A DNA stretch of 64,000 nucleotides from Butyricimonas synergistica DSM 23225. GTDB taxonomy: Bacteria > Bacteroidota > Bacteroidia > Bacteroidales > Marinifilaceae. Positions 1 through 15,800 of the stretch are shown one piece after another. The translations under genes were made by a program, and so were the position numbers. Position 1 is the stretch's first letter. The number at the start of each line of letters is the position of its first letter. A model generated the notes under the pieces. It searched no databases. It worked only from the letters and a program-made list of their open reading frames with translations, and was not told the DNA's origin. The stretch lies in assembly GCF_000379665.1 (NCBI RefSeq), contig NZ_KB903359.1, forward strand, positions 845,475 to 909,474, in the 5' to 3' direction.

Positions 1-478
1 GCCGTTTCAACCTATCGAGGGAGACGCACCACTCGTTTTTCAGGTGGTGCGCCTCGTCTAGAATAACGGTCTTCACCCCCAGCCGCTTCAGCTCGCGGGT
101 TATCGCCCGGGGGGAGGCGCCTTCCCCGTCGTCCAAGTTATTGCAAGCCGCGTGTAGTCCCTGGTAAGTGCACACGGTCATGAAGGCGGGCTTCCTGACA
201 TCGCACGATATCCACGCGGGGACGCGGTTGACCTGTAGGAATAACTCCCGGAAACGGTCGATCCATTGATCCCGGATAGCCAGCGACGGCGCCAGTATCA
301 AGGTCGGGCGGTTCAAGCGGAGCATGACTTCCAATCCCAGCACGGTTTTCCCCGAACCGGGGGGCGCCACGACGTGGAGCGAACCGTTGGACAAGTAGTT
401 ATCCAATTCCTTTAATACCCGGGACTGGTATTTCCTCCACTCGTATTTGAATTTGATTTCCGGCGGGAATTTCGTCAT
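1..478 (-). CDS. SF2 DEAD/DEAH-box helicase, N-terminal part (cut by window edge)
   Basis: Only the first 159 residues are in the window; the gene continues past position 1. The ATG lies at 478-476. A Walker A motif APPGSGKT (residues 38-45) and a DEAH box ILDEAHH (about 139-145) are 100 residues apart, as in the first RecA-like domain of superfamily 2 helicases. A typical TYQGLH segment lies between them. The protein should be an ATP-dependent DNA or RNA translocase; the second RecA domain and any accessory domain cannot be seen, so the subfamily is open. It is the last visible gene of the minus-strand run that begins with the SWIM gene, 43 bp after the acetyltransferase stop. Whether it belongs to that system or only shares its transcript is not decided by the sequence. 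Confidence 0.85.
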   Translation of the reverse strand, partial: MTKFPPEIKFKYEWRKYQSRVLKELDNYLSNGSLHVVAPPGSGKTVLGLEVMLRLNRPTLILAPSLAIRDQWIDRFRELFLQVNRVPAWISCDVRKPAFMTVCTYQGLHAACNNLDDGEGASPRAITRELKRLGVKTVILDEAHHLKNEWCVSLDRLKR

Positions 479-521
479 GATTTCCATATGCCGCGTCTGT
501 TAGTTTGCAAATATGTTACCG

Positions 522-1388
522 TTAGATTTGTCGTTTCAAGTAGATCATGTCGACGCAGGGACGACCGTTGTCGATGATGGGTTCGGGGTAATTGTCGGTG
601 AAGAAGTTTTTGACCACGTGATCCCGCTCGAAGCCGCAACGTTCGTAATACGCCACCCGCGAGTCGGAGGTTCCTACCCACAGGCAGTCGAAGTGTCCGC
701 GGTAGTGTTTCGCGAGCGAAGAGAGTATGTATGTCCCGTAGCCCTGCCCCTGGCAGGCGGGAGCCACGGCAAGGTTCTTGATTTCACCCCGGGCGTCGAC
801 GACCGCCTCGCCAATGACTTCGCCGTCCCGCTCGAGCACGAACATCTCGCTCGCCGAGAGGTAACGGCCGATCATTTCCTCGGAAGGGTCGGCATCCAGC
901 AAGAGTGGCAGGTAACGCTTCTTGTCGCCCGTGACTTTTACCAGCCGCAGGCGGGGATTCTTTAAACGCAGGTGCAGGAGCGGGTAAGGATCGCCGAAAC
1001 CGTCGACGGCGCTCCGGCTCGCGACCTCGAACCCCAAGCGGAGGTAGAAGCCTACCGCCTGTTCGTTCTGCTCGTTGACGGTGACGGTTTCGGCGTGGTA
1101 CTCGTCGACCGCCCACTCCACCAAGTCGCGCCCGATGCCCATGCCCCGGTAATCGGGATGCACGAATAGCATTTCGATGGAGGTGTCGTCCAACCCCAGG
1201 AACGCCACGACTTCGTCGCCCTCGTAATGCAGGAGGAGAGGCAGCGCGCGGCAATTCTCCCGCACGAAAGGACGGTAGAAGTCGATAGCCCCTTCTGCGA
1301 GGAAGTGGTGGGTAGCCCGCACGGAGGCTTCCCATATTTCGACGCAACGCTCGACGAGCGCGGCACTTTTCTTCGTTTGTTTCATCAT
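522..1388 (-). CDS. Tandem GNAT-domain acetyltransferase
   Basis: About 288 residues with two GNAT folds in one chain. The first (about residues 1-140) has an acetyl-CoA-binding segment HPDYRGMGIGRDLV. The second (about 145-288) has APACQGQGYGTYIL. Both carry the R/Q-x-x-G-x-G pattern of motif A, and both end in a typical FY.R.GF or YYERCGF strand. The role is N-acetylation of an amine, with unknown substrate. The start at 1388 is chosen because its ATG overlaps the TGA of the upstream VWA gene as ATGA, a coupling arrangement; an ATG at 1406 would add six residues and a longer overlap. It lies in the SWIM/MoxR/VWA operon. Self-acetylation regulation or modification of a partner are both possible, but neither is visible. 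Confidence 0.88.
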   Translation of the reverse strand: MMKQTKKSAALVERCVEIWEASVRATHHFLAEGAIDFYRPFVRENCRALPLLLHYEGDEVVAFLGLDDTSIEMLFVHPDYRGMGIGRDLVEWAVDEYHAETVTVNEQNEQAVGFYLRLGFEVASRSAVDGFGDPYPLLHLRLKNPRLRLVKVTGDKKRYLPLLLDADPSEEMIGRYLSASEMFVLERDGEVIGEAVVDARGEIKNLAVAPACQGQGYGTYILSSLAKHYRGHFDCLWVGTSDSRVAYYERCGFERDHVVKNFFTDNYPEPIIDNGRPCVDMIYLKRQI

Positions 1389-2506
1389 TTGTTTTTTGAT
1401 AACCATACGCTAATATCTTGTTTCGCGAGGGCGGTTGCCATCAAGTCCGGGAATTTATCCGGCGTGCAGGCAAAAGCCGGGACTCCCAGCTCGGCTAGGA
1501 ATTGGGCGTTCTCCTTGTCGTAGAAAGGCGCCCCGTCGTCGTTCAACGCCAGCAGCACGATAAGTTGCACGCCGCTCTGCACGAGGGCGACCATCTTCTC
1601 GCGCATTCCTTTCTCGTTGCCGCCCTCGTAAAGGTCGGTGACGAGCACCAGCACCGTGTCGGCGGGACGGGTTATGACGGTTTGGCAATAGCCTAAAGCC
1701 CGGTCGATGTCCGTGCCCCCGCCTAACTGTACACCGAACAACAAATCCACGGGGTCTTGCAGGTCGTCGGTCAGGTCGACAACCGAAGTGTCGAAGACCA
1801 CCATGCGGGTTTGCACGGAGGGAATGGAAGCCAGCACGGAACCGAATATGCCCGAGTAGACGACCGACGAGCCCATGGAACCGCTCTGGTCGAGGCAAAG
1901 GACAATGTCCTTCAGCGCCCGCCGTTTGCGCCCGTAGCCGACGCGCACTTCCGGGATAATGGTTTTGTATTCCGGCTGGTAGTTGCGCAGGTTTTTCTCG
2001 ATGGTGGTTTTCCAGTCGATCTCGTTGTAACGGGGGTTGCGCCGCCTGCTGGAGCGATTCAACGCCCCGGCTACCGCCTGTTGCATGGGCGCGGAGAGTT
2101 TCTTCATCAGTTCGTCCACCACTTTGCGCACGACTTCGCGGGCGATCGCCTTGTTCTTTTCCGGGATAACCCGGCTCAAGGACATCAACGTCGCCACCAG
2201 GTGCACGTCGGGGACGATTGACTGGAGCATTTCTTTCTCGGTGAGCAAAGAGGTGAGGTTTAAGCGTTTTATGGCGTCTTTCTGGATCACCTGTACCACC
2301 GATCGCGGGAAGAATTCCCGAATATCACCCAGCCAACGGCTTACTTTGGGAGCCGAACCTCCCAGCCCGCCCCGCCGGTCACTGTCGTACAAGGCACGCA
2401 AAGCGTCGTCGACACGGGATTCCTCGGGAGTTAACGTTATCCCCGTGCCGTCCGCCTCATCGCCCCCGAGTATCAACCGCCATCTCTTTAAAAGAGCTTC
2501 ATGCAT
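1385..2506 (-). CDS. VWA-domain protein of the MoxR/VWA operon
   Basis: 373 residues. The C-terminal half (from about residue 195) is a von Willebrand factor A domain with an intact MIDAS: DQSGS (D206, S208, S210), T265 in GGGTDID, and D291 in LVTDLYEG. The N-terminal 190 residues are mostly helical and basic, with an RSSRRR patch near residue 151. There is no signal peptide or membrane segment, so the protein is cytoplasmic. VWA proteins beside MoxR ATPases are known adaptors or effectors for metal-dependent protein remodelling, as in CoxE, BchD and RavA-ViaA. The DUF5682 gene ends 30 bp upstream, and the stop overlaps the next start by 4 bp, which indicates one operon. Which protein it remodels cannot be told. 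Confidence 0.93.
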   Translation of the reverse strand: MHEALLKRWRLILGGDEADGTGITLTPEESRVDDALRALYDSDRRGGLGGSAPKVSRWLGDIREFFPRSVVQVIQKDAIKRLNLTSLLTEKEMLQSIVPDVHLVATLMSLSRVIPEKNKAIAREVVRKVVDELMKKLSAPMQQAVAGALNRSSRRRNPRYNEIDWKTTIEKNLRNYQPEYKTIIPEVRVGYGRKRRALKDIVLCLDQSGSMGSSVVYSGIFGSVLASIPSVQTRMVVFDTSVVDLTDDLQDPVDLLFGVQLGGGTDIDRALGYCQTVITRPADTVLVLVTDLYEGGNEKGMREKMVALVQSGVQLIVLLALNDDGAPFYDKENAQFLAELGVPAFACTPDKFPDLMATALAKQDISVWLSKNK

Positions 2507-2536
2507 AAATGTCTGTTTTAATCATTGAATATATCG

Positions 2537-4825
2537 TTATTTTATTCCCACGAGTTGCCAAATTAAAGGAATGACTTTCCGGGCATCTTCCGCGTTGAAA
2601 GCCTCGCTCCCGGCGTGCAGGCGTTTCACGCCGGAGGTTCCCTTGGCTTTCTCGCCCAGTTTCCGCCGTTCCGGCACGCTGTACTCGCTGAAGGTGCGCC
2701 TTAATATGGGCAGGAGTTCTAGGAAGGTGCCGTCGTCGAGAGAAGCCAGCCAACCGTTCACGAGTTCCCACAATTGTTCGTCCAGGAGAAGGATGGTTCC
2801 CGATGATTTCAGGAATCCCTCGAACCAGAAAGCCGTTTCGGAGGCGGCGTTGCCGCGGGAAGTGTAATATTGCAGGGTTTGAGCGGTTTCCTCGTGCCCG
2901 AGTATATTCTTGTCGCGCAGCAGACGGGTGGCATAGCCCGATAACAGGGGATGGGTGCCGCGGGACTCACGCACTTTCCGCACGAGTTCCGTCCACATGG
3001 AGATTAGTTCCGGCTGGTTTGCCGTTGCCACGGCGTAATCGACCGCGATAAACTTCTCCATCAGGTCGGCTGCCGCGTCCTCGTCGATATTGGCACACGC
3101 CAACACTCCCCCCGCCAGTACGCGCGCCATCATGGTGTAAAGCATATCGTTGACTTTCGCGTAGTCGAGGTTCCGCACGCTGCCGTAACGCACCACGGTT
3201 ACCAAGCCGGGGATGGCTTTCATCATTTCCAACACGTCGGTCGTGGAGGCGGCGAGGGCATCCAGACGCCGCGTCATTTGCTCCACCAAGCCGGGCAAGT
3301 CGGCAGGAATTACCTGTTGCAATAAATCGACGAGCGCGGAGATGGAGGGTATATCTTCGGCCTGACGCACGTTGTAGGCAACGACCGCTTCCGCCAAGGT
3401 ATTTCCCCAAACGGCTTTCTCGATGATAGAGAGCGTCTGTTCCGGCTCGTAGTACACGGACCAGGACTCTTTGAAAGTTCCCTTCCCGTCGCTTCCCAAG
3501 GGGCGTGCCAGGCGTATCCCGAGCAAGTTCAAACGATGGAAAACGATACTCCGTTCCAAGTCGTTCGGCTTGCGCAAGTCCAAGTTGTATTCCTTTATCC
3601 CGGTGGTTAAGGGCAAACGTAAACGCTTCAACAGTTTCTCCACGTCCACGAGCAAGGGCACTTTGGGGACATCGCCGGGGACGGCTCCCATGCGGTCGCT
3701 GATGACCAGTGCCTCCCGGATGATTTGCAGGACGACGGGGTCGCCGAAGCCCATCACCGTGGTGACGGCATCGTTGTATTCCTCGAGCGAGGGGCGGGAT
3801 AATCCCCGCAGGGCCGCCGTCACTTGTGCCAAGCGTACCGTTTCGATCACGTGTGCCACGGATATGTCCATTCCCCGGGCACGGAATAGGGCTGCCACTT
3901 TACTCATCCAGCGGGTACCGTCGTCATCGGGGTAATCCCACACGTGGTCGTACCATCCCGGGGAGATGATTCCCGCCCCGTAGCCGCTGCGGTAGGACAA
4001 ACGGTCGTAAGTCCACGGTATCCACGTGCATTCGACCTTTACTTTGGGCAAGCCTTTCAATAGTTCGTTATCTTCTTTTCGCGCGGGCATTTTCTCCAAC
4101 CCGGGCACGTGCCAAGCCCCGCAGATGACGGCGATACGTTGGCAGCCTTCTTTTTGTGCCGCCCGGATCATCTTCCGCATCCAGGCTTCGCGCAGGGAGG
4201 TTTCCCGGTCGATCGCGGGGTATGCCTCCCGCAAGGCGGTGACGGCTTCGCGCACGGCAAGGAATATTTCTTCGTTGTTCCGGCGATTCTCGAAGTTCAT
4301 TTCCCACCAAAGTTCCGGGTCGTCGTACCCTGCCGCTTTCGCGAGAGCGGCGAAAGGATCGACGTGCACCGGTTCCGGCGGCACGGGTGAGGCTTCCGCC
4401 TCCGGTTGGTTTCCCGGGGCGGATGGCATCCCCTCTTCTTCCGTGTCGTGCGCCTCTTCGCTAGCTTTTTGCAGCTCCGCTTGTTCTTCCCGCTCTTTCC
4501 ATAACGCCAAATGATGTACCAGCGGCAAGTCGAAGAAACGGAGCGGTATCCCCCGCTTCACGGCATAACACATCGCCTGCCACTCCGGGGAGAACCCGGC
4601 GAAAGGATAGAAAACCGCCCGCTTGGGTTCGTCGGGCTGGTAAGCGAGCAAAGCCACGGGGGGCTTCATTTGCTCGTGAAGTACGCCCGGCAGCAAGGGT
4701 TCTGCCTCGGGCGGTCCCTCCAATAATATCATATCCGGTTCCAGTTCTTCCAAGTAGGCTTTCACGTTTTTAGCCGAACCGGGACCGTGATGTCGTATAC
4801 CTAAAAAATGTATTCCGTCTGACAT
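2537..4825 (-). CDS. DUF5682 family protein, TraB/TIKI-like N-terminal motifs
   Basis: 762 residues, without signal peptide or membrane segment. I recognise it as the DUF5682 family by its opening GIRHHGPGSA (residues 9-18), then ILLEGPPEAEPL (about 34-45) and VICGAWHVPG (233-242). These three blocks follow the same order as the GTxH, ELD and GxGHxxG blocks of the TraB/PrgY/TIKI and EreA/ChaN-like superfamily, so a metal-dependent hydrolase-like fold is plausible (inference). Residues about 110-155 are acidic and low complexity, a likely linker. The rest, rich in leucine and helices, has no motif I can name. The gene sits between MoxR (17 bp upstream) and VWA (30 bp downstream), as in other operons of this kind. 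Function is undescribed. Confidence 0.88.
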   Translation of the reverse strand: MSDGIHFLGIRHHGPGSAKNVKAYLEELEPDMILLEGPPEAEPLLPGVLHEQMKPPVALLAYQPDEPKRAVFYPFAGFSPEWQAMCYAVKRGIPLRFFDLPLVHHLALWKEREEQAELQKASEEAHDTEEEGMPSAPGNQPEAEASPVPPEPVHVDPFAALAKAAGYDDPELWWEMNFENRRNNEEIFLAVREAVTALREAYPAIDRETSLREAWMRKMIRAAQKEGCQRIAVICGAWHVPGLEKMPARKEDNELLKGLPKVKVECTWIPWTYDRLSYRSGYGAGIISPGWYDHVWDYPDDDGTRWMSKVAALFRARGMDISVAHVIETVRLAQVTAALRGLSRPSLEEYNDAVTTVMGFGDPVVLQIIREALVISDRMGAVPGDVPKVPLLVDVEKLLKRLRLPLTTGIKEYNLDLRKPNDLERSIVFHRLNLLGIRLARPLGSDGKGTFKESWSVYYEPEQTLSIIEKAVWGNTLAEAVVAYNVRQAEDIPSISALVDLLQQVIPADLPGLVEQMTRRLDALAASTTDVLEMMKAIPGLVTVVRYGSVRNLDYAKVNDMLYTMMARVLAGGVLACANIDEDAAADLMEKFIAVDYAVATANQPELISMWTELVRKVRESRGTHPLLSGYATRLLRDKNILGHEETAQTLQYYTSRGNAASETAFWFEGFLKSSGTILLLDEQLWELVNGWLASLDDGTFLELLPILRRTFSEYSVPERRKLGEKAKGTSGVKRLHAGSEAFNAEDARKVIPLIWQLVGIK

Positions 4826-4841
4826 GGCATGAACTATTCTG

Positions 4842-5921
4842 TTATAGCATTTCGCGGGACGCGCGATAGATGTCCTTCCACCCGTCGCGTCCTTTCACGA
4901 CGGTTTCGAGGTATTCCTGCCAGACGACGCGGTCTTGCACGGGGTCTTTGACGACAGCACCGATGATACCGGACACGAGGTCGACGGCATTCAGGCGCCC
5001 GTCGCCGAAATACCCGGACATGGCAAGCCCGTTATTCACGACGGATATGGCTTCGGCGGTGCTCAAGGTTCCGGAAGGGGTTTTCAGTTTCGTTTTCCCG
5101 TCCTCGGTTGCCCCACCCCGCAATTCGCGGAAGATGGTTACCACGCGGCGAATCTCTTCCAGTGCCGGTTTCTCGGCAGGGATGTCCATCACGGTGGAGA
5201 ATCCTTCCACGCGGCGGCGCACGATGTCGATTTCTTCCTCGATGGTGTCGGGCAAAGGCAGGATCACGGTGTTGAAACGACGCTTCAAGGCACTCGAGAG
5301 TTCGTTGACTCCTTTATCCCTATTGTTGGCGGTAGCGATCACGTTGAAGCCCCGGATAGCCTGTATCTCCTTATCCAGTTCGGGAACGGGGAGGGTTTTC
5401 TCGGAGAGGATGGTGATTAACGTGTCCTGCACGTCCGAACCCACGCGGGTCAATTCCTCGATACGAGCCAGCTTGCCGTCCCGCATCGCCCGCATCACGG
5501 GAGTCTGCACTAAAGCCCCCTCGCTGGGTCCTTCCGCCAATAACTTGGCATAGTTCCAACCGTAGCGGATAGCTTCCTCGCCCGTTCCGGCTGTTCCCTG
5601 CACGATCAGCGTGGAATCACCGGATATGGCTGCCGCCAAATGTTCGCTTACCCAGCTCTTTGCCGTTCCCGGCAGACCGTATAACAATAAAGCCCGATCG
5701 GTGACCAAGGTTGCCACGGCGATCTCGATCAGCCGACGGTTCCCGATATATTTTGGACTAATTTGAAAACCATTCTTTAGTGTTCCCCCCATCAGATAGG
5801 TCACGACCGATTGCGGGGATAGTTGCCAGTTCTCCGGAACCTTGTTGGTTTCGTTTTTCTTTAACTCGTGCAGTTCTTCCTCGAACTGTTGCTCCGCGTG
5901 TTGTCTTAGTAATAAACCCAT
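4842..5921 (-). CDS. MoxR-type AAA+ ATPase
   Basis: 359 residues. Walker A is GLPGTAKS (82-89). The Walker B region reads ARIEELTRV (152-160), with Glu where most MoxR proteins have Asp-Glu. Sensor 1 is IATANNRDKG (195-204), and an arginine-finger segment is ALKRRFN (211-217). The C-terminal part is the helical lid. A charged, coiled-coil-like stretch (about 8-28) precedes the AAA core. MoxR ATPases act with VWA partners as chaperones that remodel or activate client proteins, often by metal insertion; here the partner is the VWA gene two positions downstream. It is in the cytoplasm. The gene lies 30 bp after the DUF5691 stop and 17 bp before DUF5682. Confidence 0.94.
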   Translation of the reverse strand: MGLLLRQHAEQQFEEELHELKKNETNKVPENWQLSPQSVVTYLMGGTLKNGFQISPKYIGNRRLIEIAVATLVTDRALLLYGLPGTAKSWVSEHLAAAISGDSTLIVQGTAGTGEEAIRYGWNYAKLLAEGPSEGALVQTPVMRAMRDGKLARIEELTRVGSDVQDTLITILSEKTLPVPELDKEIQAIRGFNVIATANNRDKGVNELSSALKRRFNTVILPLPDTIEEEIDIVRRRVEGFSTVMDIPAEKPALEEIRRVVTIFRELRGGATEDGKTKLKTPSGTLSTAEAISVVNNGLAMSGYFGDGRLNAVDLVSGIIGAVVKDPVQDRVVWQEYLETVVKGRDGWKDIYRASREML

Positions 5922-5951
5922 ATTGTAAGTTGTTTAATTTAAAGACGGTAT

Positions 5952-7436
5952 TTACACATCCGCTGTAAATCCTTCTTGTATATCCTTTTTTATTTGTATT
6001 AATTGCTGCATACGCACGGTGAATTCCCAATGGCTTCCGCTATTCTCTTTTGCTGCTCCTAGTTCCCCGATATAGCCAAGCAGCGATACCGGAAGGCGTA
6101 ATGCCAGTTGCTCGCAGGTGGGGCGGTCGTAATAACAATAGGTCATGCTGTAAATCATTTTCAGAACGCCGCGGGAGAAGTTCTCGCCCCATTCCTCATC
6201 GTTGTCGTCCAGCCATTGCATCACGTAGAAGTTTTGTTGCGCTTTCCCTTCCAGGTTCAATTCCTCCCGCTGCCCGACGGATAGCATGGGCACAAGGGGG
6301 AGCAATTCCGGGTGTTGCAATACCCGCTCGCCTTTCAGCCAGTAGTACGCCCATTGGCGGTCGTTGAAGTTGAAAATGGCGTTTTCTAAATGAATATACT
6401 TGGAAAAAGGCGGGGATTTACGCATGCGCCGCGCCGCCGTTTCAAGGTCGCATTCCAAGATTTCACTCCAGAAGGACAAGGGTACGCACTCTGCCATTTG
6501 TCTTAATATGTAATCGCTGTCGCTCTCTCCTTTATTGCTACTGACCTCGTTGATACCCGCTTTTTTGAACTCGTCCGAGTAAGCCACGGGGTCGACAGAC
6601 CAACCGAGCAGGCGGCGATAGTGCAAGTGCTGCTTTAATGTCCGGGCGTATAATCCGACGATAGCGGAATCGGGTATCCTCCGCAACAGGTCGAGGGCGG
6701 TATCCCTTACCGTGCTGCTACGATCGCCGGCACGCACGCTTTCCAAGAATTCTTCGTCCGATTTGGACAAACCGGTCTTCAAACACTCCAGCAATTCCGC
6801 CCGATGTTGTGCCGGCTCGTTCTTCCATTCCGTGCGCAAGAGTTCGATCCCCCGGGGAGGATCGCTTTCCCTTACCCGGGACAGGATGCTTTTCCGGTCG
6901 GCGTGTGTTGCCGTTTCCCAATCCTCGTTTCCTTCTTCCTGCATGGGCGGGTAGTTCATCAAGGGCAGCAACCACCGTCCCCGGTTGCCGATCAGGGAAG
7001 CCAACAGGCGTTTCTCGCACTTTGCCGTCTGGCTACCTGGCAAGAATGCCCTTTCCAACACGTCCAGCAGGTATTCCGCGGGGATCAAATAGCCCCGTTC
7101 CGCGGCCGTCTTGTACCACAAGAGTAGCATATGCACATACTTTTCGCCTAACAGCATTCCCAATAATGCCGCCGCTTTTTTCCCGGGGTAAGGCATCGTT
7201 TCCGGCTCCGCGACCGTGACCGGAATGGGGTCTTTCAAGTTCAAAGGTTCTAACCCGGAACGGTAATAAGCGAAGAAGGCTGCCGCTATCTTGTAAAAGA
7301 GGTCCTCCCCGTCCGCCGCGGTTTCCTTTATTTTCGACAAGGTATCGCCCAAGTCTTCCGGCAGGTCCTCGGCGGATAGTTCCCGGTTAGCCGTCCCCAG
7401 CAGGGCTGTATTGATTACGTTATCCGTTATGCTCAT
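5952..7436 (-). CDS. DUF5691 family helical-repeat protein
   Basis: 494 residues with no signal peptide or membrane segment. I assign it to DUF5691 from its opening (NTALLGTANREL, residues 9-20) and its fixed place between the SWIM gene and the MoxR ATPase. It is built almost wholly of amphipathic helices with Leu/Trp/Arg-rich turns (for example GRWLLPLMNYPP near 153-164), which suggests an alpha-solenoid scaffold. No catalytic motif is evident. Its start overlaps the end of the SWIM gene by 17 bp, so translation is probably coupled and the two products may bind each other. Function is unknown; scaffold or adaptor between the zinc-finger protein and the ATPase is a guess from context. Confidence 0.85.
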   Translation of the reverse strand: MSITDNVINTALLGTANRELSAEDLPEDLGDTLSKIKETAADGEDLFYKIAAAFFAYYRSGLEPLNLKDPIPVTVAEPETMPYPGKKAAALLGMLLGEKYVHMLLLWYKTAAERGYLIPAEYLLDVLERAFLPGSQTAKCEKRLLASLIGNRGRWLLPLMNYPPMQEEGNEDWETATHADRKSILSRVRESDPPRGIELLRTEWKNEPAQHRAELLECLKTGLSKSDEEFLESVRAGDRSSTVRDTALDLLRRIPDSAIVGLYARTLKQHLHYRRLLGWSVDPVAYSDEFKKAGINEVSSNKGESDSDYILRQMAECVPLSFWSEILECDLETAARRMRKSPPFSKYIHLENAIFNFNDRQWAYYWLKGERVLQHPELLPLVPMLSVGQREELNLEGKAQQNFYVMQWLDDNDEEWGENFSRGVLKMIYSMTYCYYDRPTCEQLALRLPVSLLGYIGELGAAKENSGSHWEFTVRMQQLIQIKKDIQEGFTADV

Positions 7437-8754
7437 TGTTCAACGTGTAATATTTATCATCTATCCATAATGACAAGGCTCTCCACACGCGTTCTCCCGC
7501 CATGAAGAAGCCCGTGAATTCCCGACCGCCGGTCACGGCGAGCCCTTTCAGACGGGCGGATTCTCCCGCGCCCAACGCCACGAAACGCCAGTCCCTGTCC
7601 CGCAACCAAAACTGCCCCTCGTGTACCGCGAAACGCACCCCGCTCACGATGACCGGCACTTCGTGGAGAAAAGGGTTTACCGTGAGTTTCTCCCGAAAAT
7701 ACCGCATCGCTTCCGACAAGCCCGCGTATCCCGCACTCCCGTCCGTCACCGGGAATATTTCCCCCGGTCCCCGCTGCTCGCGCACCAAGACCCGGGTCGG
7801 GTCGATCCCCCGGTAAAAGGTTAAGTCTGCCCGGACGACGTTGCCGGGCATAAAGGCGATCTCCGGCAATGCCCCCGCCATGATAAACTGCAAGAATAGG
7901 GCGTATTTCTTACTTTGTCGCCCGTACAACCAATTGTACTCGACGGTCAGGCGGTCTTGTTGTAAAGACTCCGTACCTACCACGTACCAGTCATCGGTCA
8001 CCGTCTGACCTTTCGCGAGTACTTCCTCCTTCGATTGGGGGTATCCCACGAGGGTACGAATCTCATCCTGCCATTCCCCGGGCAGTCGGCCCAGGTGTTT
8101 ATAACTTTCCGCCACGAGATAGGCTTTGCTTAATAAGGCGGTCAACAGGTATTTCCAGTCTTCCCCGAAATAGTTGATTTCCTGCAACTGACGCATCATG
8201 CCCGCCAATCCCGGAGCCTGCGCGTCCACCATACGTTTCGCGATTCCCTCGAACAGCTCCCGCGCCCGTTCCGGTACGTTCAACAAACCGTTACGCGCTA
8301 GATCCCTGAGCCAGCCTTGTAAGTCCTCGGCTCCTCCCAGCACCTTTCGATGTCGTGCTTCCAGGCGTTTCGCCTGAGCCTCGGCATCTACCGGTTTGTC
8401 GCTTTTCTCTTTCTTTTCCGCCGCTTTATTCACCCGTTTATCCAACCACTCGACGACCCACGCGGGTTCTTCCCCGGTAGAAAACAGGTCCGGTTGTGAC
8501 GCGTATAGAAATAGTAATCCCAAACTATGTTTACAAGGAAATTTACGACTCGGGCAAGAACATTTGAAAGCTATATTCTGCAAATCCACCTGTGTCTGGT
8601 AAGGATTCGCCCCGCTTCCCTGGCAATGTCCCCACAATGCCCGTCCGCTAGCCCCCCGCAATACCCATTTCGCCGCCGAGGCCAAGCCCTTCCCGGCTTT
8701 CACGGATGCCGCATCAGGAGCTAACTTAATAATCTGCTCTTCTGATAATTGCAT
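7420..8754 (-). CDS. SWIM zinc-finger protein, first gene of the MoxR/VWA operon
   Basis: 444 residues. A SWIM finger CxCx6CxH is complete: C65, C67, C74, H76 (CSCPSRKFPCKH). SWIM domains bind zinc and mediate DNA or protein contacts. A charged linker follows (about 100-135, rich in Lys and Glu), then a helical middle and a beta-rich C-terminal half that I cannot assign. It begins about 24 bases after the predicted transcription start and leads the operon that contains DUF5691, MoxR, DUF5682, VWA, GNAT and helicase genes. The order SWIM-DUF5691-MoxR-DUF5682-VWA is known from several bacterial phyla but has no established function. DNA or nucleoprotein recognition by this subunit would be a reasonable first hypothesis. 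Confidence 0.92.
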   Translation of the reverse strand: MQLSEEQIIKLAPDAASVKAGKGLASAAKWVLRGASGRALWGHCQGSGANPYQTQVDLQNIAFKCSCPSRKFPCKHSLGLLFLYASQPDLFSTGEEPAWVVEWLDKRVNKAAEKKEKSDKPVDAEAQAKRLEARHRKVLGGAEDLQGWLRDLARNGLLNVPERARELFEGIAKRMVDAQAPGLAGMMRQLQEINYFGEDWKYLLTALLSKAYLVAESYKHLGRLPGEWQDEIRTLVGYPQSKEEVLAKGQTVTDDWYVVGTESLQQDRLTVEYNWLYGRQSKKYALFLQFIMAGALPEIAFMPGNVVRADLTFYRGIDPTRVLVREQRGPGEIFPVTDGSAGYAGLSEAMRYFREKLTVNPFLHEVPVIVSGVRFAVHEGQFWLRDRDWRFVALGAGESARLKGLAVTGGREFTGFFMAGERVWRALSLWIDDKYYTLNNEHNG

Positions 8755-8783
8755 GTATCCACATTTTCAATATTCAATGTCGG

Positions 8784-8813
8784 CAAATTTAAGGGTAAAT
8801 ATGAGATATCAAA
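8784..8813 (-). promoter_or_regulatory. Promoter of the SWIM/MoxR/VWA operon
   Basis: On the minus strand a -7 box TAAATTTG (8791-8784) matches the Bacteroidota consensus TAnnTTTG. A TTTG -33 box (8813-8810) lies 18 bases upstream. Transcription would begin near 8777, about 23 bases before the SWIM start codon. The -33 box coincides with the U-tract of the preceding terminator. Confidence 0.6.
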
Positions 8814-8814
8814 A

Positions 8815-8845
8815 CGTCCATCAACGAAATTCATGTTGATGGACG
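8815..8845 (-). terminator. Rho-independent terminator after the TlpA-like gene
   Basis: A perfect 11-bp stem (8815-8825 with 8835-8845, arm CGTCCATCAAC on one side) closes a 9-base loop. On the minus strand it is followed directly by TTTTGATAT. It lies 43 bp after the stop of the TlpA-like gene and separates that operon from the SWIM operon. Confidence 0.7.
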
Positions 8846-8888
8846 CAATATATTTAGGATTTTCTGTAATAAATACGGTATAAAAGAA

Positions 8889-10259
8889 CTATTCCCAACA
8901 GATCTTATCAAGCAAAGTAGCTAACTCTTTCATTCCCGGTCTATACGCGAAAGCCATACGTATTTTAAAATTCTTATCGATTAATATAAAACGGGGGATA
9001 CCGCTAATACGGTAGGCTTCTTGGAACTTTTTATTGACAGCATGCCACTCGAGAACGTTTCCCGCATGCGGATGAGCATTTAAATAACTCTTCCATGGTG
9101 CGGCTTTTTTGTCTATGGACACGGCTACAAACTTGATGTTCTTTCCCTCGTATTGCCGTGCCAATTCATGAAAGACGGGCGCTAGGGCTTTGCAAGGATT
9201 GCACCACGTTGCCCATACATCTATAAACATAGGGGTTCCTTTGTAATCCGACAATTTATGCAAGTTACCGCCCGCGTCTTCAAACTCGAAATCCATCGCT
9301 TCCATTCCGGCCAAAAGATTGCGTTTATCCGCCACGTGTTCCTCAACCACCCGCGACACGACGGGATCTTTGACCCGTTCCCGGAATTCCAAAAGCTCGA
9401 GGCTATAGAGACGTGTCACGTCGTTCAATACCTGCATCAACGCGTATTCTTCTTCAAAAAGCGTGTAACCGATTTGTTTCGCAAAATCGGGTTCTATATC
9501 ATGAACTATATTCGCGAGCAGCCGACTAACCTGAATGTATTGAAGTACATCTTGTTCTTTGTAACGCTTGTACAATTTACGGGCATTTTTTAAAAATTCC
9601 CGTGAAAAAGAAGTATTCTTGAACCCGGCATGCCACGCTTCAAAATCCGCGGGAGAGTATTCACTTTGTCTTCTCTGCACGAGGTTTTGATAGTAATTTA
9701 ACAAAGTATGAACAGCCATGAAATCAACGCGAAGGCAGCAATCGTTCACGAACTTTCCCGGATGAAATGTATTTTTCACGACTCGTTTCAAGGAATCGGC
9801 ATTAAAATACACTTGACGCCGGTATTCTTTGTAGGTGGTTTCGGGGGTAAATTGCCCCGGGTAAAGCATGCCGTATCCCAAGAACCAATCTTGATTGAGC
9901 CACGCGTTCTCTTCCGCCAAATCACCCGAGAATGTTGATTTTTCCCGTTCCCGGTTATTGTAATCAATGATAATCACACTACCCGGTTTCACGAAGATGT
10001 TGAGCGCACCCCAACCGTATAGTTTATAATATTCGCCTTCCGGGTCGGTTACCGGTAACGAAAAGGCGAGAGAATCCCCCGGGAGTAGCCGCTCGGACCG
10101 GATCATGTCATATTTTGTTTCTTTAATCAATTCTGCCGGGTAACGTTGGAACACGGGATGTGGTTTGAATATCACCGTTGCGTTTTGAGCAAAAGAGGTT
10201 AATGTACATAGTATACAGAGAACCCCTAGAAGAAGTGATTTATTAGATCTTCCCATCAC
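8889..10259 (-). CDS. TlpA-like thioredoxin-fold protein, exported
   Basis: 456 residues. A signal peptide covers about residues 1-24, ending TSFAQ. The C-terminal 145 residues are an AhpC/TSA-Redoxin domain with the active site WCNPC (Cys353, Cys356) and the cis-proline loop GIPRFILID. The roughly 300-residue N-terminal part matches the DUF4369-like plus helical layout common in Bacteroidota TlpA proteins, though I see no sharp motif. It should act in the periplasm as a thiol-disulfide reductase or isomerase. It starts 3 bp after the stop of a lipoprotein gene that follows a SusC/SusD pair, so it is the last gene of that import operon and may reduce a cargo or maintain its transporter. Confidence 0.9.
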   Translation of the reverse strand: MMGRSNKSLLLGVLCILCTLTSFAQNATVIFKPHPVFQRYPAELIKETKYDMIRSERLLPGDSLAFSLPVTDPEGEYYKLYGWGALNIFVKPGSVIIIDYNNREREKSTFSGDLAEENAWLNQDWFLGYGMLYPGQFTPETTYKEYRRQVYFNADSLKRVVKNTFHPGKFVNDCCLRVDFMAVHTLLNYYQNLVQRRQSEYSPADFEAWHAGFKNTSFSREFLKNARKLYKRYKEQDVLQYIQVSRLLANIVHDIEPDFAKQIGYTLFEEEYALMQVLNDVTRLYSLELLEFRERVKDPVVSRVVEEHVADKRNLLAGMEAMDFEFEDAGGNLHKLSDYKGTPMFIDVWATWCNPCKALAPVFHELARQYEGKNIKFVAVSIDKKAAPWKSYLNAHPHAGNVLEWHAVNKKFQEAYRISGIPRFILIDKNFKIRMAFAYRPGMKELATLLDKICWE

Positions 10260-10262
10260 GTG

Positions 10263-11228
10263 CTATTTTAATTCAAAACCTATTGATTTCACAACCTCGC
10301 GCATGATCCGGAACTTTTCGATTACCATGGGATATTCCGCATATTCCGCCTCGAAGGCTTGGCTACTGTACGAAATCACCGCCATGACGTAATCCTCGAT
10401 ATCAGCATTTTCATCCCCCAGCGTGTAATACCACTTCGTCACGTCCGGGTCCGAGACATAGTGATATTTCGAGCGGTCAAAATCCAAGAAGCCGTACACT
10501 TCCCAGCGAGCCGGGGACAAACACACGTACCCCGGGTAACGAGGAACACGTACTTCCATCTTGTAATAGCTCCGTTGAGTCGCGGGGTCGTAGCTGACCC
10601 GCTTGAATGTTTCCAAACCGGCAGAGGGGGTTTTCGCCAAGTAATTTATAGCCAAGTAGACGAGGATCTCGTTAGCCCGATACGCCTTCTCCTCGACGGA
10701 CATTCCCGCGATAACGGGTATGTCGGCTATCGCCAAGGTTTCCATCGCCTGGTGTACTTTTTTCATGTCTTTCGCTCCTCCCGCGTATTGTTGCTCGTAT
10801 ATCGAGTCCAGCAAAAGGATGGACTGGATATGGAAGATGTCCGGCACAAGGGGCAAAAACACTTTGTCGATAAATTCTATCCCTGCCAGCTTATCGGCTT
10901 CGTCTTGTATTAAAGCGATACGTTTAGCCACGATGCTGTACACGTTAGCCGGATTATTGAGGTTGTAGTTTAAATCCAACACTTTGTGATAGACGATGGG
11001 CTGCCCGTTATGGTCTATGCCCCGTTCCTGTTGCCCGATGGTATCGTTAAGGAAGACGGGTATGCCCCAGCTGGAGTAGACCCCGTAGGCGGCGTGCTGC
11101 ACCGCGTCATCCGGGTTGTCTTGTATCATGAACCATTCCGCGTCCACGTACGAGGGTGTCAAATCATCTTCCTTGCTACATCCCACGGCAAAGAACAATA
11201 TCGTTAAAAGTAATATATGGTATTTCAT
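10263..11228 (-). CDS. SusD-linked lipoprotein of unknown function
   Basis: 321 residues. The signal peptide ends in the lipobox AVGC (Cys17), so it should be a lipoprotein, probably on the cell surface as its SusD neighbour. The place after SusC/SusD is often taken by a zinc metallopeptidase-like lipoprotein with HExxH. The segment YGVYSSWGIPVFLNDT and the general length recall that group, but no HExxH is present anywhere in the chain, so peptidase activity is not supported. It lies between the SusD gene (11 bp gap) and the TlpA-like gene (3 bp gap). I cannot assign a family with confidence. Confidence 0.8.
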   Translation of the reverse strand: MKYHILLLTILFFAVGCSKEDDLTPSYVDAEWFMIQDNPDDAVQHAAYGVYSSWGIPVFLNDTIGQQERGIDHNGQPIVYHKVLDLNYNLNNPANVYSIVAKRIALIQDEADKLAGIEFIDKVFLPLVPDIFHIQSILLLDSIYEQQYAGGAKDMKKVHQAMETLAIADIPVIAGMSVEEKAYRANEILVYLAINYLAKTPSAGLETFKRVSYDPATQRSYYKMEVRVPRYPGYVCLSPARWEVYGFLDFDRSKYHYVSDPDVTKWYYTLGDENADIEDYVMAVISYSSQAFEAEYAEYPMVIEKFRIMREVVKSIGFELK

Positions 11229-11239
11229 TTGCGTTAATA

Positions 11240-12808
11240 TTAAAAGCGTTTAAACATTTCTCTCTGGGGACGAGCGGTATTATCCACCATGTTCCCCTTG
11301 TTGAATTCGATTACCGACCGTGGGATCGGGATCACGTAAGCGGGTTCCGAGGCGTACTCGTTCAACCGGTAACTACCCAGATACTCAAGCTGCCAAGTCG
11401 TGTTGTTATAAAAATACTGGTCATGAATGATGGGCTTGGAATACGGGTAGCGGGAATGAACGGCATAGCGGCGCAAATCGAACCAGCGATGCCCCTCGAA
11501 GCAAAGTTCCCGGCGGCGTTCGTCACGAATCAACTCGACCAACTTTTCGCCAGCCCGCTTGTCGAGGGCGACATAAGTACCCTGTTTCACCCGTTTGACG
11601 CGCAGTTCCTCGATCAGGTCCCGTGCCTCATCTTCCCGGGAGAGCATAGCCAGGGCTTCCGCTTTGTTCAGCAAGACCTCGGGCAACCGGAGCAAACACT
11701 CGGACGAAACCATGCCATCACGCGTGTCGACTAACTTTTTCACTAAATAAAGCGGGTTATACGGGTCTTTATATATCCCTAACCACGACCCGAATCGCAG
11801 GTCATTCCCCGGTTCCCGGCTATACATGCCGATCAAGTCATCGGAGACGTTAAAATTACTCATATCCATAACAGACATATTATATTGCCCCGCAAAACAA
11901 TACCCTCCCTGGGAAAATATCGTTTCGGGGGAATCCTTGTACGTCACGCTGACGCCATCCCGTATGTTCCCGTACTGGTCCGGGACCACCAGTGCCAAAC
12001 GCTGGTTGTAATCCAAAAGGGTGTAGCCTCCTTGCAACACCGTGTCGGCCGAGGCGAGCACCTTCTCGTACTCTTCCATGTACAAGTAGACGCGGCTCAG
12101 TAAAGCGTGTGCCGCATAGAAGCCAGCGCGATAGACGGTCTTGTGCTCTTTACCTTTCAACAAACGGGTAGCCTCGGTAAGGTCCTCGATGACACGGGCG
12201 TAGGTTTCTTGCAGCGTGTTGCGCTTGAAGTAAACGTCCTCTATATATTCCGTGGTCTTCACGGGGACACCCAAGTCGGTTGCCGCCGAGGCTTTCGCGT
12301 AAGGTTTGGCGTAAATATTCGCCAAATAGAAATAGTACATTCCCCGCAAGAAGTAACATTCGCCCTTGATGCGTTCCAATTTTTCCGGTTGGTCGTGCAT
12401 CTCTTCCGTTTTGGAGAGTATAACATTTACCGCACTGATGTGCTTGTACAACCGTTTCCAGTCGGAATCTTCCACCTCTTCTCCCTCGCGCGTGTAAGGA
12501 TATTCCGACCAAAGATAAAAATTGGCAAACTCGGTAAATACAGTACCGATCCACGTCCCCCCGGTGTTAATTTGAGTGATATCATCATCCATCACGTGCA
12601 ACCAGGGGAAATAATACCCGTCACTGCTCCCCAAACCGATACCGGCATTATTTTCCGGCACCTTCATGTACCCGTCCCCGATCAATATCTCGTCCAAATC
12701 CGCCGCTGTTTTCGCGTAAGTCAGATCCTGGGAATACTCTTCCAAGAAAGAGTCACACGAGCTAAAGAAGAAAAGAAGCGGGATTAAATAACTTATATAA
12801 CTTTTCAT
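11240..12808 (-). CDS. SusD/RagB-family surface lipoprotein
   Basis: 522 residues with a lipobox ending in FSSC (Cys18). The early helices, the mid-protein YFLRGMYYFYLANIYAKPYA segment (about 150-170) and the C-terminal RDERRRELCFEGHRWFDLRRY (about 432-452) are classic SusD signatures: the first is the TPR region, the second the start of the C-terminal domain. SusD proteins lie on the outer face of the outer membrane and form a lid over the SusC barrel that catches the ligand. The partner is the SusC gene directly upstream (12 bp gap). The ligand is not evident. This SusD is not closely similar to the other three in the window. Confidence 0.95.
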   Translation of the reverse strand: MKSYISYLIPLLFFFSSCDSFLEEYSQDLTYAKTAADLDEILIGDGYMKVPENNAGIGLGSSDGYYFPWLHVMDDDITQINTGGTWIGTVFTEFANFYLWSEYPYTREGEEVEDSDWKRLYKHISAVNVILSKTEEMHDQPEKLERIKGECYFLRGMYYFYLANIYAKPYAKASAATDLGVPVKTTEYIEDVYFKRNTLQETYARVIEDLTEATRLLKGKEHKTVYRAGFYAAHALLSRVYLYMEEYEKVLASADTVLQGGYTLLDYNQRLALVVPDQYGNIRDGVSVTYKDSPETIFSQGGYCFAGQYNMSVMDMSNFNVSDDLIGMYSREPGNDLRFGSWLGIYKDPYNPLYLVKKLVDTRDGMVSSECLLRLPEVLLNKAEALAMLSREDEARDLIEELRVKRVKQGTYVALDKRAGEKLVELIRDERRRELCFEGHRWFDLRRYAVHSRYPYSKPIIHDQYFYNNTTWQLEYLGSYRLNEYASEPAYVIPIPRSVIEFNKGNMVDNTARPQREMFKRF

Positions 12809-12820
12809 AGCTTCTATCGA

Positions 12821-15800
12821 TTAAAAAGTGATACCTAAATTAACGGAATACGAGGGACGAATAGACAAATTCAATTTATCGGTTGTCCCCGACTGGGAAG
12901 GATCCTGCCCTTTCAGTTTTGAACTGCAAATCGTGAACAGGTTACTCCCGGAAATCCCGATATATGCCGTTTTCAATAACAATTTCTTACAGAATTCCTC
13001 CGGCAACGTGTAGTTAAACACGAAAGATTGCAACTTCAAATAATTCCCGCTCACGGTACGGATATCGGAATTATCATACATTTGCCAGATGTTGTCGGCA
13101 AACTTAATCGAGTTATAATCTGATCTACCCCACCAAGGACTCAACGTTCTGCTATATTCGGCATTTGATAACAATCCCGGGATATTCGTGTGCTTCTCGT
13201 CACCCGGACGTTGCCAACGTTTCACGAATTCCCGACGCACGTTCCTTTCCGGAAGAGGAGCTACCGTTGTTCCATTTTGATTCGCCCCGTACAATTGCAT
13301 CAACCGGATTTTAGAACCAAACGAGTAAGAGAGATTAAAACTCAATGACATCCGTTTGTAGGAAAAAGTATTCGACACGCCACCTTGCAGTACCGGCACC
13401 CGCGTACCAGACACCTTCATCACCCGGCGGAAGACGTCCTCCCGCTCCATTTTCAGGTATTCATCTTTAAGTTCTTCCTCCACGTCATAAAACATCGGGC
13501 GTCCGTCCTCGGGCGACAACCCTTTAAACTTGTAGGAGAAGAAAGTATTCAGAGGCTCTCCTTCAATCAACGCCGAGCCATCCAGGTAATTCGTGTAGAA
13601 TATCTCATCCTGTTCTCTCTCGAAACTATTATTATTGACCGCTTTCGTCAACAACGTGTTCAATACTTGTCCTATTTGCGGGTCAATATCCCAACGGAAA
13701 CCACCGATGTTAGCACCCGCTTTGATAGGGGTAAAATTGAAACTCATCTCGAACCCCTTGTTTTCCACAGTTCCGGAATTAATCACGTAGGTTTCCACTC
13801 CATTAATATCCGCCACGGTTTTGCTCAAAAAGGCGTCTTTGGTCTTCTTGTAAAAATAGGAGAAAGTTCCACGGATACGGTTATTGAACAAGGCAAAGTC
13901 CACGGAACCGTTGAACGCCCCGGTTTTTTCCCATCGCAAATCGGGGTTGGGGTAATGTTGTATATTCGACTCGTACTCGCCGAAATAATCGTTCATATTC
14001 CCTTTCTTGATAATCAACTCGGGTGTCTGTTCGCTCAACATATTTCCCTGGTACCCGAAAGAACTTCTCACGGATAACCCGTTAACCCAATTTACATCCC
14101 GCAATATATTCGCTTTCATATCCCAACTCGCGGAAACCGACCATACCGGCAATATCTTTTCGTTACTGCGATCCCCGAACTTGTTGGAAGCATCCGCACG
14201 TGTGTTAAAATTAAACGAATAAGCATTATTCAACGTATAGGTCAATGTCAAATAAGCCGACATCTCGTTTTGAATGTTATCCGTGAGTACCCCTCTCGCA
14301 TCTTCCTGTTCCATTTGCCATTTAGCAAAAGCAGGATAGACGTCAGGATCCAGCGTCGCGATCATCTTTCCCCGCTCGGGCAAGTACCCCCGGTGAACCT
14401 GACGTTTCCCGTCATATTTTGAAGACGACAACTCGAAACCCACGGCAGCATTAATCAAATGTTTTTGCTCACTATCCAAGAATTTCGTGAAATCAAATTG
14501 CAGACGGGTAGTATAATTGTCATTCCGGGTAAAATCCTCGCGATATTCTCCCCCCACGGGCAATAAACTGACAGCCTTTTGATCGGGAGTTAATTCCACC
14601 CCGTAATTCGTACCCCGGAGATTTGACGCGTAGAAAGAATTCTCGCCGATAAAAGTTTCCTGCATCGTGTTATTGATACTGTATGAAAATATGAATTGAG
14701 TTTTCAACCAATCGTTGAAACGATAGTTCAGATTCATATTCAAGGTTATCCCAGAGCTATTGTACTCGTCACGGTAATTTTCCATCTCGTGCAAAGCATT
14801 AAATGCTAACGGGATATTGGAACTCGCGATTGAAGAACCTTTCACATCGTAAAAATAAAGGCTCCCGTCTTCGTTGAATGCCGGAATAGCACGCGATGTA
14901 TTATAGGCGTAATCCAGAATATTCACCTCGCTGTTCACGTATTCCCGCACTCCTTTGTTTGCCAACATTCCGAACGAAAACGAGAATTTATTGAAACTCC
15001 CGTTTATGTTCACACTCGTGGAATAACGATCATTTTTCTCTCCCTTGATTACTCCTTTCTCGTTGGAATATCCTAAAGAAGCGTAATAACGGATATTCGA
15101 ACTACCTCCCGACAGGCTCAACGTGTGGCTATTGGAAAACACATCCTCTGTGATCAAATCGAACCAATCGGTGTTCACTGTTTCCAATCTTGATACCTCA
15201 TCCGTGAATTGTTGATAAGTATAGATTCCATTATTATACTTATCAAGAGCTCCTTCATAACCGACCCAATTATTGATAGTCGGGTACGATAGTCCTTTCT
15301 CGATGATCTCCCTGGAATACGCTATACGCTCTTTGGAGTTCATCAAATAAATATTCTTGTCCGAATAACGAGGTCTTGCCGTGAACTTGCCATTCAAACT
15401 GTACGTCACGGAAGGCGGACCCGTTTTTCCCTTCTTCGTGGTGATATTGATTACCCCATTTGCCGCCTTCGCCCCGTATAAAGCCGTGGCGGAAGCATCC
15501 TTTAAAATATCAATACGTTCGATGTCTTCAGGATTGATCCCGGAAATTGCATTTCCCACCAGATTAACAAAATCCAGATTATTAATTAAAGTCGGGATCA
15601 CGTTCACCGGATCACGCAACACGATACCATCTAATACCCACACGGGCTCTTGGTTTCCGAGTATCGTGGAAGTTCCCCGGATTCGCAATTTCGGTGCAGC
15701 TCCCACTTGTCCCGAATTTTGCATAAAGATCATGCCCGGCACGTGTGATTCAAGCAATTGATCTATAGTTTGTACCCCGGGCACCTTGATTTTGTCCATT

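Follow-up and report, generated by a model that had tools for sequence, protein, structure and literature searches.

The closest described counterparts of the system analysed here are the YehL-type ATPases, a subfamily of MoxR proteins named in PMC3893208, and a five-gene operon of Deinococcus deserti, Deide_18730 to Deide_18690, which was reported in 2009 as uncharacterised and with a radiation-response motif in front of it (PMC2669436). In a literature search for which subscription papers lay outside the scope, no paper on the function of the Escherichia coli genes yehL, yehM, yehP or yehQ was found, DUF5682 was named in no paper, and DUF5691 was not named among the matches listed. We have analysed a stretch of 64,000 nucleotides (nt) of Butyricimonas synergistica DSM 23225 (contig NZ_KB903359.1, positions 845,475 to 909,474; the window), which carries a core of five adjacent genes encoding a SWIM zinc-finger protein, a DUF5691 protein, a MoxR ATPase, a DUF5682 protein and a VWA protein. 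An initial annotation had presented these five proteins as one machine and the whole as the strongest candidate for an undescribed system. The latter is half right, given that the YehL subfamily has a name (PMC3893208) and that an operon of matching order was reported in D. deserti (PMC2669436). Judged from its distribution the core is one near-obligate, near all-or-none unit, and the most interesting new feature of the system is, as read from conserved residues, the hydrolase signature of DUF5682.

All five genes lie on the minus strand. The first encodes the SWIM protein (7420-8754, 444 amino acids (aa); Pfam SWIM E 1.1e-4, 22.1 bits against a cut-off of 19.6), followed by the DUF5691 protein (5952-7436, 494 aa; Pfam DUF5691 E 4.5e-79), a MoxR AAA+ ATPase of the YehL type (4842-5921, 359 aa; Pfam AAA_5 E 2.2e-36), the DUF5682 protein (2537-4825, 762 aa; Pfam DUF5682 E 3.3e-254) and the VWA_CoxE protein (1385-2506, 373 aa; Pfam VWA_CoxE E 1.7e-49). 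Thus the family names first given to the five proteins are borne out by Pfam, with E-values from 3.3e-254 to 1.1e-4. According to the list of open reading frames the SWIM and DUF5691 genes overlap by 17 nt, and the following gaps are of 30 nt (DUF5691/MoxR), 16 nt (MoxR/DUF5682) and 30 nt (DUF5682/VWA).

The linkage of the five genes was examined in 93 DUF5682 sources, namely 12 wide loci from whole-genome searches (L016-L027), the best 80 of at least 587 public-genome relatives (L028-L107), which are biased to close relatives and in which L031 duplicates L017, and the window. By using iterated hidden Markov models (HMMs), all five families were found in 70 of the 93 sources and in 62 of the 71 that have enough flank, that is, at least 4.5 kb upstream and at least 1.5 kb downstream of DUF5682. 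The common gene order is SWIM, DUF5691, MoxR, DUF5682, VWA; the main irregular loci are L040, with the VWA gene 3.4 kb off, L075, with split frames, L090, with overlapping frames and a wide gap, and the fusions L071 and L084. Record titles place the hosts in Bacteroidota, Cyanobacteria, Chloroflexi, Planctomycetes, Verrucomicrobia, Acidobacteria and several proteobacterial lineages. Against the idea of an obligate unit, nine of the 71 sources with sufficient flank are missing at least one of the five families (L024, L026, L027, L045, L057, L069, L082, L095 and L103). The outcome that had been named in advance as fatal to the proposal, a genomic survey with the five genes mostly apart, is nevertheless not the one obtained. 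The core genes do not usually occur apart, and the dispersed cases examined retain them in the same genome, as in G092, where the five genes are spread over four contigs (one place each on C45, C52 and C10 and two on C34).

Co-occurrence was followed in 395 Bacteroidota genomes. DUF5682 is present in eight of them, one per genus in eight genera, and in six of the 56 genomes of the host's family. The VWA protein (E<=1e-20) occurs in the identical eight genomes, a coincidence for which a random draw gives P < 1e-15 (a value that ignores relatedness). The SWIM protein (E<=1e-10) is present in seven of the eight, G217 being without a match, and DUF5691 is present in all eight with a further weak match in G069; the matches in G217 and G069 are below the family cut-off. 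The MoxR protein was detected in six of 178 genomes, every one of them DUF5682-positive. The DUF5682-positive genomes G406 and G233 were not among the MoxR matches in these 178; G406 carries MoxR in its locus L022. The recurrence of the core as a unit, as first proposed, is therefore upheld both by linkage and by the shared presence of VWA and DUF5682.

Natural fusions add to the support for one machine. Two Planctomycete loci encode SWIM and DUF5691 as a single protein (L071, 977 aa; L084, 994 aa), and in Streptomyces atratus a protein of 1255 aa unites DUF5682, in its front part, with VWA; these two kinds of fusion suggest that the machine may consist of two halves, SWIM with DUF5691 and DUF5682 with VWA. 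Over 68 complete loci the median pairwise identity is 0.72 for MoxR, 0.62 for VWA, 0.45 for DUF5682, 0.37 for SWIM and 0.23 for DUF5691, so MoxR and VWA are the most conserved subunits and DUF5691 the most divergent. Pairwise identities are correlated for every family pair (Spearman 0.57-0.83, with no control gene), which indicates joint descent at most.

The alignment of the core proteins, from which those shorter than 80% of the window protein were left out, demonstrates that the ATPase motifs and the metal ion-dependent adhesion site (MIDAS) of the VWA protein are intact. In MoxR, Lys88, Asn199, Arg214 and Arg215, which we take to be the ATPase motif residues, are present in 77 of 77 proteins. 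Asp206, Ser208, Ser210 and Asp291 of VWA are likewise present in 77 of 77 and Thr265 in 75 of 77, these five being presumably the MIDAS residues. The SWIM finger CxC(x6)CxH corresponds to Cys65, Cys67, Cys74 and His76, all four found in 70 of 70 aligned proteins. Among solved structures MoxR is most similar in sequence to midasin (E 1.5e-12), and only weak matches were obtained for SWIM (one row), DUF5691 (two) and DUF5682 (two), the strongest being 9r2o_A to DUF5691 (E 0.0049); the same sequence search gave no solved-structure match for the VWA protein. The matches of MoxR to NCBIfam models (MadB 41.5, GvpN 31.3 and IteA 13.0 bits) are far under the cut-offs.

The relationship with E. coli is clear for three subunits. 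YehL shares 40% identity with MoxR, YehM 26% with DUF5682 and YehP 36% with VWA. The MoxR HMM matches YehL at 1.4e-89, with no match to RavA at E<=10, and the DUF5682 HMM finds YehM at 9.7e-83. An adjacent VWA partner with its MIDAS is present, as expected of the YehL subfamily. By these sequence criteria MoxR-DUF5682-VWA is homologous to YehL-YehM-YehP. YehQ (614 aa) has a Pfam SWIM finger and is not matched by the SWIM-protein HMM at E<=10. The genes yehLMPQ are near-core in E. coli, being found in 5162 of 5426 genomes at 80% cover.

DUF5682 is formed by an N-terminal domain (about residues 1-300) resembling TraB, TIKI and EreA, and by a helical C-terminal part. The N-terminal domain contains the signature GxxH...E...GAxH as Gly9xxHis12, Glu36 and Gly236AlaTrpHis239, in which His12, Glu36, Gly236 and His239 are present in 92 of 92 aligned proteins and Gly9 in 91 of 92. 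E. coli YehM retains the GxxH, Glu and GGWH motifs. The three motifs expected of TraB/TIKI/EreA/ChaN-like hydrolases, GxxH, Glu and GAxH, are thus found in DUF5682 in the right order and spacing. In a TraB comparison Gly18, His21, Glu47, Gly244 and His247 are invariant in 12 aligned segments, in the same order and at similar spacing. The related enzyme EreC relies on His50, Glu78 and His289 (PMC7979712). A profile comparison with hhalign (19 TraB rows and 16 ChaN rows, ChaN row L142 being left out) gave E 0.0014 against TraB over residues 6-241 and E 0.001 against ChaN, both as single comparisons, whereas four unrelated families used as negative controls gave 0.08-0.49; reversed profiles scored 23.1 and 17.7 compared with 32.6 for the real one. 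In the AlphaFold2 model (mean predicted local distance difference test score, pLDDT, 89.6), in which a large helical C-terminal part is visible, the three motifs come after strands 5-10, 32-35 and 231-236. The Pfam DUF5682 model aligns from residue 21 only and leaves the first conserved motif (GxRHHG) outside, which may be the reason why the likeness to hydrolases has gone unannotated.

Several results weigh against this assignment. The hhalign probabilities are low (18-21%), and the positive control of TraB against ChaN is weaker than the comparison it was to calibrate (E 0.07, a value reached by 5 of 150 shuffles). Four of 150 TraB shuffles beat the real score, all four as end alignments of 2-9 columns, and a structural alignment of the DUF5682 model listed no chain named TraB, TIKI, EreA or ChaN. 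Chain 7w5z_E was not identified by a search with one TraB protein or with a 12-row TraB profile. Entry 5t09 (HopBA1) has reportedly been related to TraB/TIKI/EreA/ChaN. Taking together the three-motif signature and its conservation, the earlier prediction of a hydrolase is probably right.

A link with genotoxic stress comes from Deinococcus. The D. deserti operon has MoxR third (Deide_18710) and VWA fifth (Deide_18690) by locus number (PMC2669436), as in the window; the two operons were matched on gene order and not on sequence. The annotation of D. taeanensis lists, in this order, SWIM, DUF5691, AAA, a small hypothetical protein, DUF5682 and VWA, so the five families of the window occur in order, with the difference of an extra small gene. 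This gene lies at 9762-9998 of L169, between MoxR and DUF5682, and the window operon is without it. A scan with the motif consensus printed in PMC8533742 located a site resembling the radiation/desiccation response motif (RDRM) 20-34 nt 5' of the D. taeanensis SWIM start, with two mismatches, this being the only match with at most two mismatches in 22,214 bases, where 0.13 would be expected; of 100 shuffled versions, 13 contained such a match. When the 300 nt 5' of the SWIM gene were shuffled by mononucleotides, 16 of 2000 shuffles gave such a match. We consider this site supportive evidence of a genotoxic-stress link, though short of proof.

On the other side, 10 of 67 other upstream stretches, that of the window included, reach a motif match with at most two mismatches, another form of the radiation motif had 0 matches in the D. 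taeanensis locus, and a 20-base LexA consensus gave 0 matches around E. coli yehLMPQ. D. radiodurans, furthermore, is reported to be without the operon (PMC2669436). The upregulation of DUF4132 and WGR genes in D. radiodurans on DdrO depletion (PMC8533742) is consequently an indirect indication, since that species does not carry the operon. MolR is described as a member of the LexA regulon (PMC8533742). Altogether, the Deinococcus data suggest that the system may have a role in genotoxic stress, at least in that genus.

We propose, with a confidence that we would put about midway, that the core encodes a five-protein machine of the YehL-type MoxR-VWA kind that feeds a TIKI-type hydrolase. In such a machine the VWA protein would sit on DUF5682 and link it to the MoxR ATPase ring, and the SWIM-DUF5691 pair, the most divergent half, would recognise the client or the nucleic-acid platform of the client. 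ATP-driven remodelling would then open or present the client to the site formed by His12, Glu36 and His239 of DUF5682, which may cut a peptide or ester bond in it. As for the setting, the repair or clearance that follows genotoxic or related stress seems most likely, in Deinococcus at least. A narrower version, which we advance only tentatively, is a DNA-damage-linked, ATP-driven TIKI-type protease complex in which the MoxR-VWA motor, client selection by SWIM-DUF5691 on nucleic acid and a hydrolase of TraB/TIKI fold would be combined; if true, this would be an AAA+ proteolytic machine in a class of its own, apart from Clp, Lon, FtsH and the proteasome.

The alternative that survives best, a possible one although we lean away from it, is a dedicated maturation chaperone in the style of CoxD/CoxE, NorQ/NorD or RavA/ViaA, which would assemble one enzyme or load it with its cofactor, DUF5682 being a structural adaptor. 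The VWA protein does belong to Pfam VWA_CoxE, MoxR matches solved NorQ (E 5.6e-6), and the MoxR proteins named in PMC3893208 serve enzyme assembly or activation. Such a chaperone should have a client nearby; however, no client oxidoreductase recurs among 75 close same-strand neighbours (unlinked clients were not searched for), and a full hydrolase-type signature would be superfluous in an adaptor. These counts of flanking genes leave out L018, L019, L031 and the window, together with opposite-strand, distant (at least 700 nt) and short (under 100 aa) neighbours.

A role in anti-phage defence or conflict, in which the core would belong to the MoxR-vWA class and DUF5682 would be the effector, is close to the defence role that had been suggested for the operon at first and seems to us doubtful. 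Its attractions are the patchy distribution of DUF5682 among the Bacteroidota genomes and within the host's family, the loss of the core with a scar in the genus-mate G007 (see below), and DUF5682 relatives in 36 of 72,556 plasmid-collection records, though some of these are chromosome-sized. MoxR-vWA conflict systems do exist (PMC7159879), and in them effectors are carried with vWA (PMC8195603), which recalls the DUF5682-VWA fusion of Streptomyces. MoxR itself narrowly clears the Pfam bpMoxR cut-off, by 1.3 bits (28.3 vs 27), beneath the far stronger AAA_5 match. A GmrSD-type restriction enzyme is encoded close after a cyanobacterial core (L074, 12757-14418), as the sole clear defence gene among the individually scanned neighbours, and two plasmids have toxin-antitoxin, immunity or nuclease genes near the core: in Methylosinus, no more than 10 kb away, a VapC toxin-antitoxin pair together with an Imm26 protein, and a PDDEXK nuclease near the Hymenobacter operon. 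Against this, the PADLOC 2023 models gave no convincing match to the core, the best being IetA with 16.1 bits over 30 residues, and a Pfam scan named no VMAP, iSTAND or beta-propeller in it. No defence family recurs among the 75 neighbours (25 of 153 families covered, including some that occur once), the relative in E. coli is near-core, and G092 keeps all five genes though dispersed. DUF5682 relatives were found in 1 of 50,697 phage records, and a scan of viral contigs gave none.

Least probable of all, and in our opinion very unlikely, is that DUF5682 serves as a scaffold without catalytic function in a machine which, via SWIM, would do no more than unfold or take apart nucleoprotein complexes, as the large helical C-terminal part of DUF5682 and the likeness of MoxR to midasin, presumably a complex-remodelling ATPase, might suggest, because the motif histidines and glutamate are conserved in every aligned protein and in YehM, which is atypical of a pseudoenzyme.

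Two further genes follow the core on the same strand, so that all seven together span 2-8754. The first encodes a double GNAT acetyltransferase with two GNAT domains by Pfam (522-1406), and the second, assigned by Pfam to ResIII, a superfamily 2 (SF2) helicase (2-487) of which the window edge leaves the 5' part; read past this edge the protein has 889 aa in full (L002, 5293-7962). The VWA and GNAT genes overlap by 22 nt from the first ATG; the 4-nt overlap first described is obtained only from an internal ATG. In the remaining spacings the overlap of 17 nt and the two gaps of 30 nt stand, whereas MoxR and DUF5682 are separated by 16 nt instead of 17 and GNAT and helicase by 34 instead of 43. 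Ahead of the SWIM gene, an intergenic leader of 134 nt (8755-8888, minus strand, read from sequence) contains, by eye, a terminator-like inverted repeat followed by TTTT, and a promoter-like element. This element (8784-8814) matches a Bacteroidetes pattern, which at the stringency used occurs 25 times in the window compared with 22.7 expected by chance; the promoter said to lead the operon is no more than plausible, the pattern not being above chance window-wide.

Comparison with genus-mates defines the edge of the unit. They have a common site, with an MscS-like channel and a DUF1963-like gene (both by eye) followed by variable content. The core is present there in G008, G009, G010 and the window genome, and G006 and G007 have neither DUF5682 genome-wide nor the core at the site. 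The GNAT gene of G007 has an open frame of 288 aa (74% identical). It is followed by 105 nt that match an internal stretch of the VWA gene (72%, E 4.7e-10), and these by roughly 44 nt from the start of the SWIM gene, which form part of a 209-nt match (79%) that continues into the shared flank (L160, about 3.5-3.9 kb from the 3' end, compared with L018). We read this remnant as a probable deletion scar, left where the operon was once present and was lost while GNAT was retained. In G006, GNAT and core are both missing from the site, and the helicase is at the site in two of six genus members (G000 and G009 only). Since GNAT is kept in the core-less G007 and the helicase is at so few of the sites, we regard both as neighbours and not as parts, and the HMMs of the two agree, finding GNAT in 5 and the helicase in 2 of the 93 DUF5682 sources; the suggestion that they are local effectors is thus not sustained. 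Base composition did not define a foreign island, as the G+C content of the operon (0.55-0.58) extends into the left flank (0.50-0.63 per kb), the other side having 0.34-0.51. Upstream of the core, 8889-16489 carries a thioredoxin-like gene and SusD- and SusC-like genes (the latter two by eye), a neighbourhood retained in G010 and not in G008 or G009.

Elsewhere the core is found in other layouts. Among five annotated plasmid contexts, those of D. taeanensis and Rhizobium carry all five genes in order, and those of Methylosinus and Hymenobacter show four families with no VWA gene listed, the gene table being incomplete. In the Hymenobacter radiodurans plasmid record (L173, 7986-10278) the annotation splits DUF5682 into three overlapping pieces and lists no VWA gene behind them. 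A 14-kb "Bacteriophage sp." record from human faeces (MT835988.1, 10641-12758) encodes a 27%-identical DUF5682 and could be a mislabelled bacterial contig. The layout of Streptomyces is E. coli-like: DUF4132, a 1640-aa protein, MoxR, the DUF5682-VWA fusion and a protein of 623 aa in which a SWIM-like motif is present. The DUF4132 family, to which E. coli YehI belongs, is the most frequent among close neighbours (6 of 75 proteins scanned) and is encoded directly after VWA in L033, L037, L038, L043, L044 and L048, loci of Chitinophagaceae type, of which L033 and L037 were scanned individually and the other four were assigned by length and place. It is also beside the core in E. coli (L108) and Streptomyces (L172). 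Because it is absent from the window's genome we treat it as accessory, and its recurrence suggests a possible accessory subunit common to otherwise different layouts.

With relatives in most sequenced E. coli strains, the near all-or-none set, its hydrolase-like subunit and the radiation motif provide a testable hypothesis for four 'y' genes and two DUFs. It can be tested in E. coli K-12 and in Deinococcus, and named active-site residues are available in DUF5682.

Among known systems, RavA-ViaA is also a MoxR and VWA pair, with a proposed chaperone role (PMC3893208), but neither of its proteins is matched by the five core HMMs at E<=10. The MoxR-vWA ternary conflict systems are alike in having a MoxR and vWA core with additional subunits (PMC7159879, PMC8195603). 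A fusion of an enzyme with vWA that may be comparable is seen here in Streptomyces DUF5682-VWA only, the genes being separate in the window, and the ternary systems differ in their third components, which Pfam does not name in the core. With TraB/TIKI/EreA/ChaN-like hydrolases DUF5682 shares the GxxH...E...GAxH signature and a weak profile similarity, differing from them by its extra helical C-terminal half and its MoxR-VWA partner. The E. coli yehL-yehM-yehP-yehQ cluster has the same MoxR-DUF5682-VWA order and a SWIM protein; it differs in that no DUF5691 match was found among the genes tested, YehQ is last instead of first, and WGR and DUF4132 genes lie upstream. On this comparison of sequence and gene order, the system of the window belongs with the YehL-type MoxR-VWA systems, as a variant that carries DUF5691.

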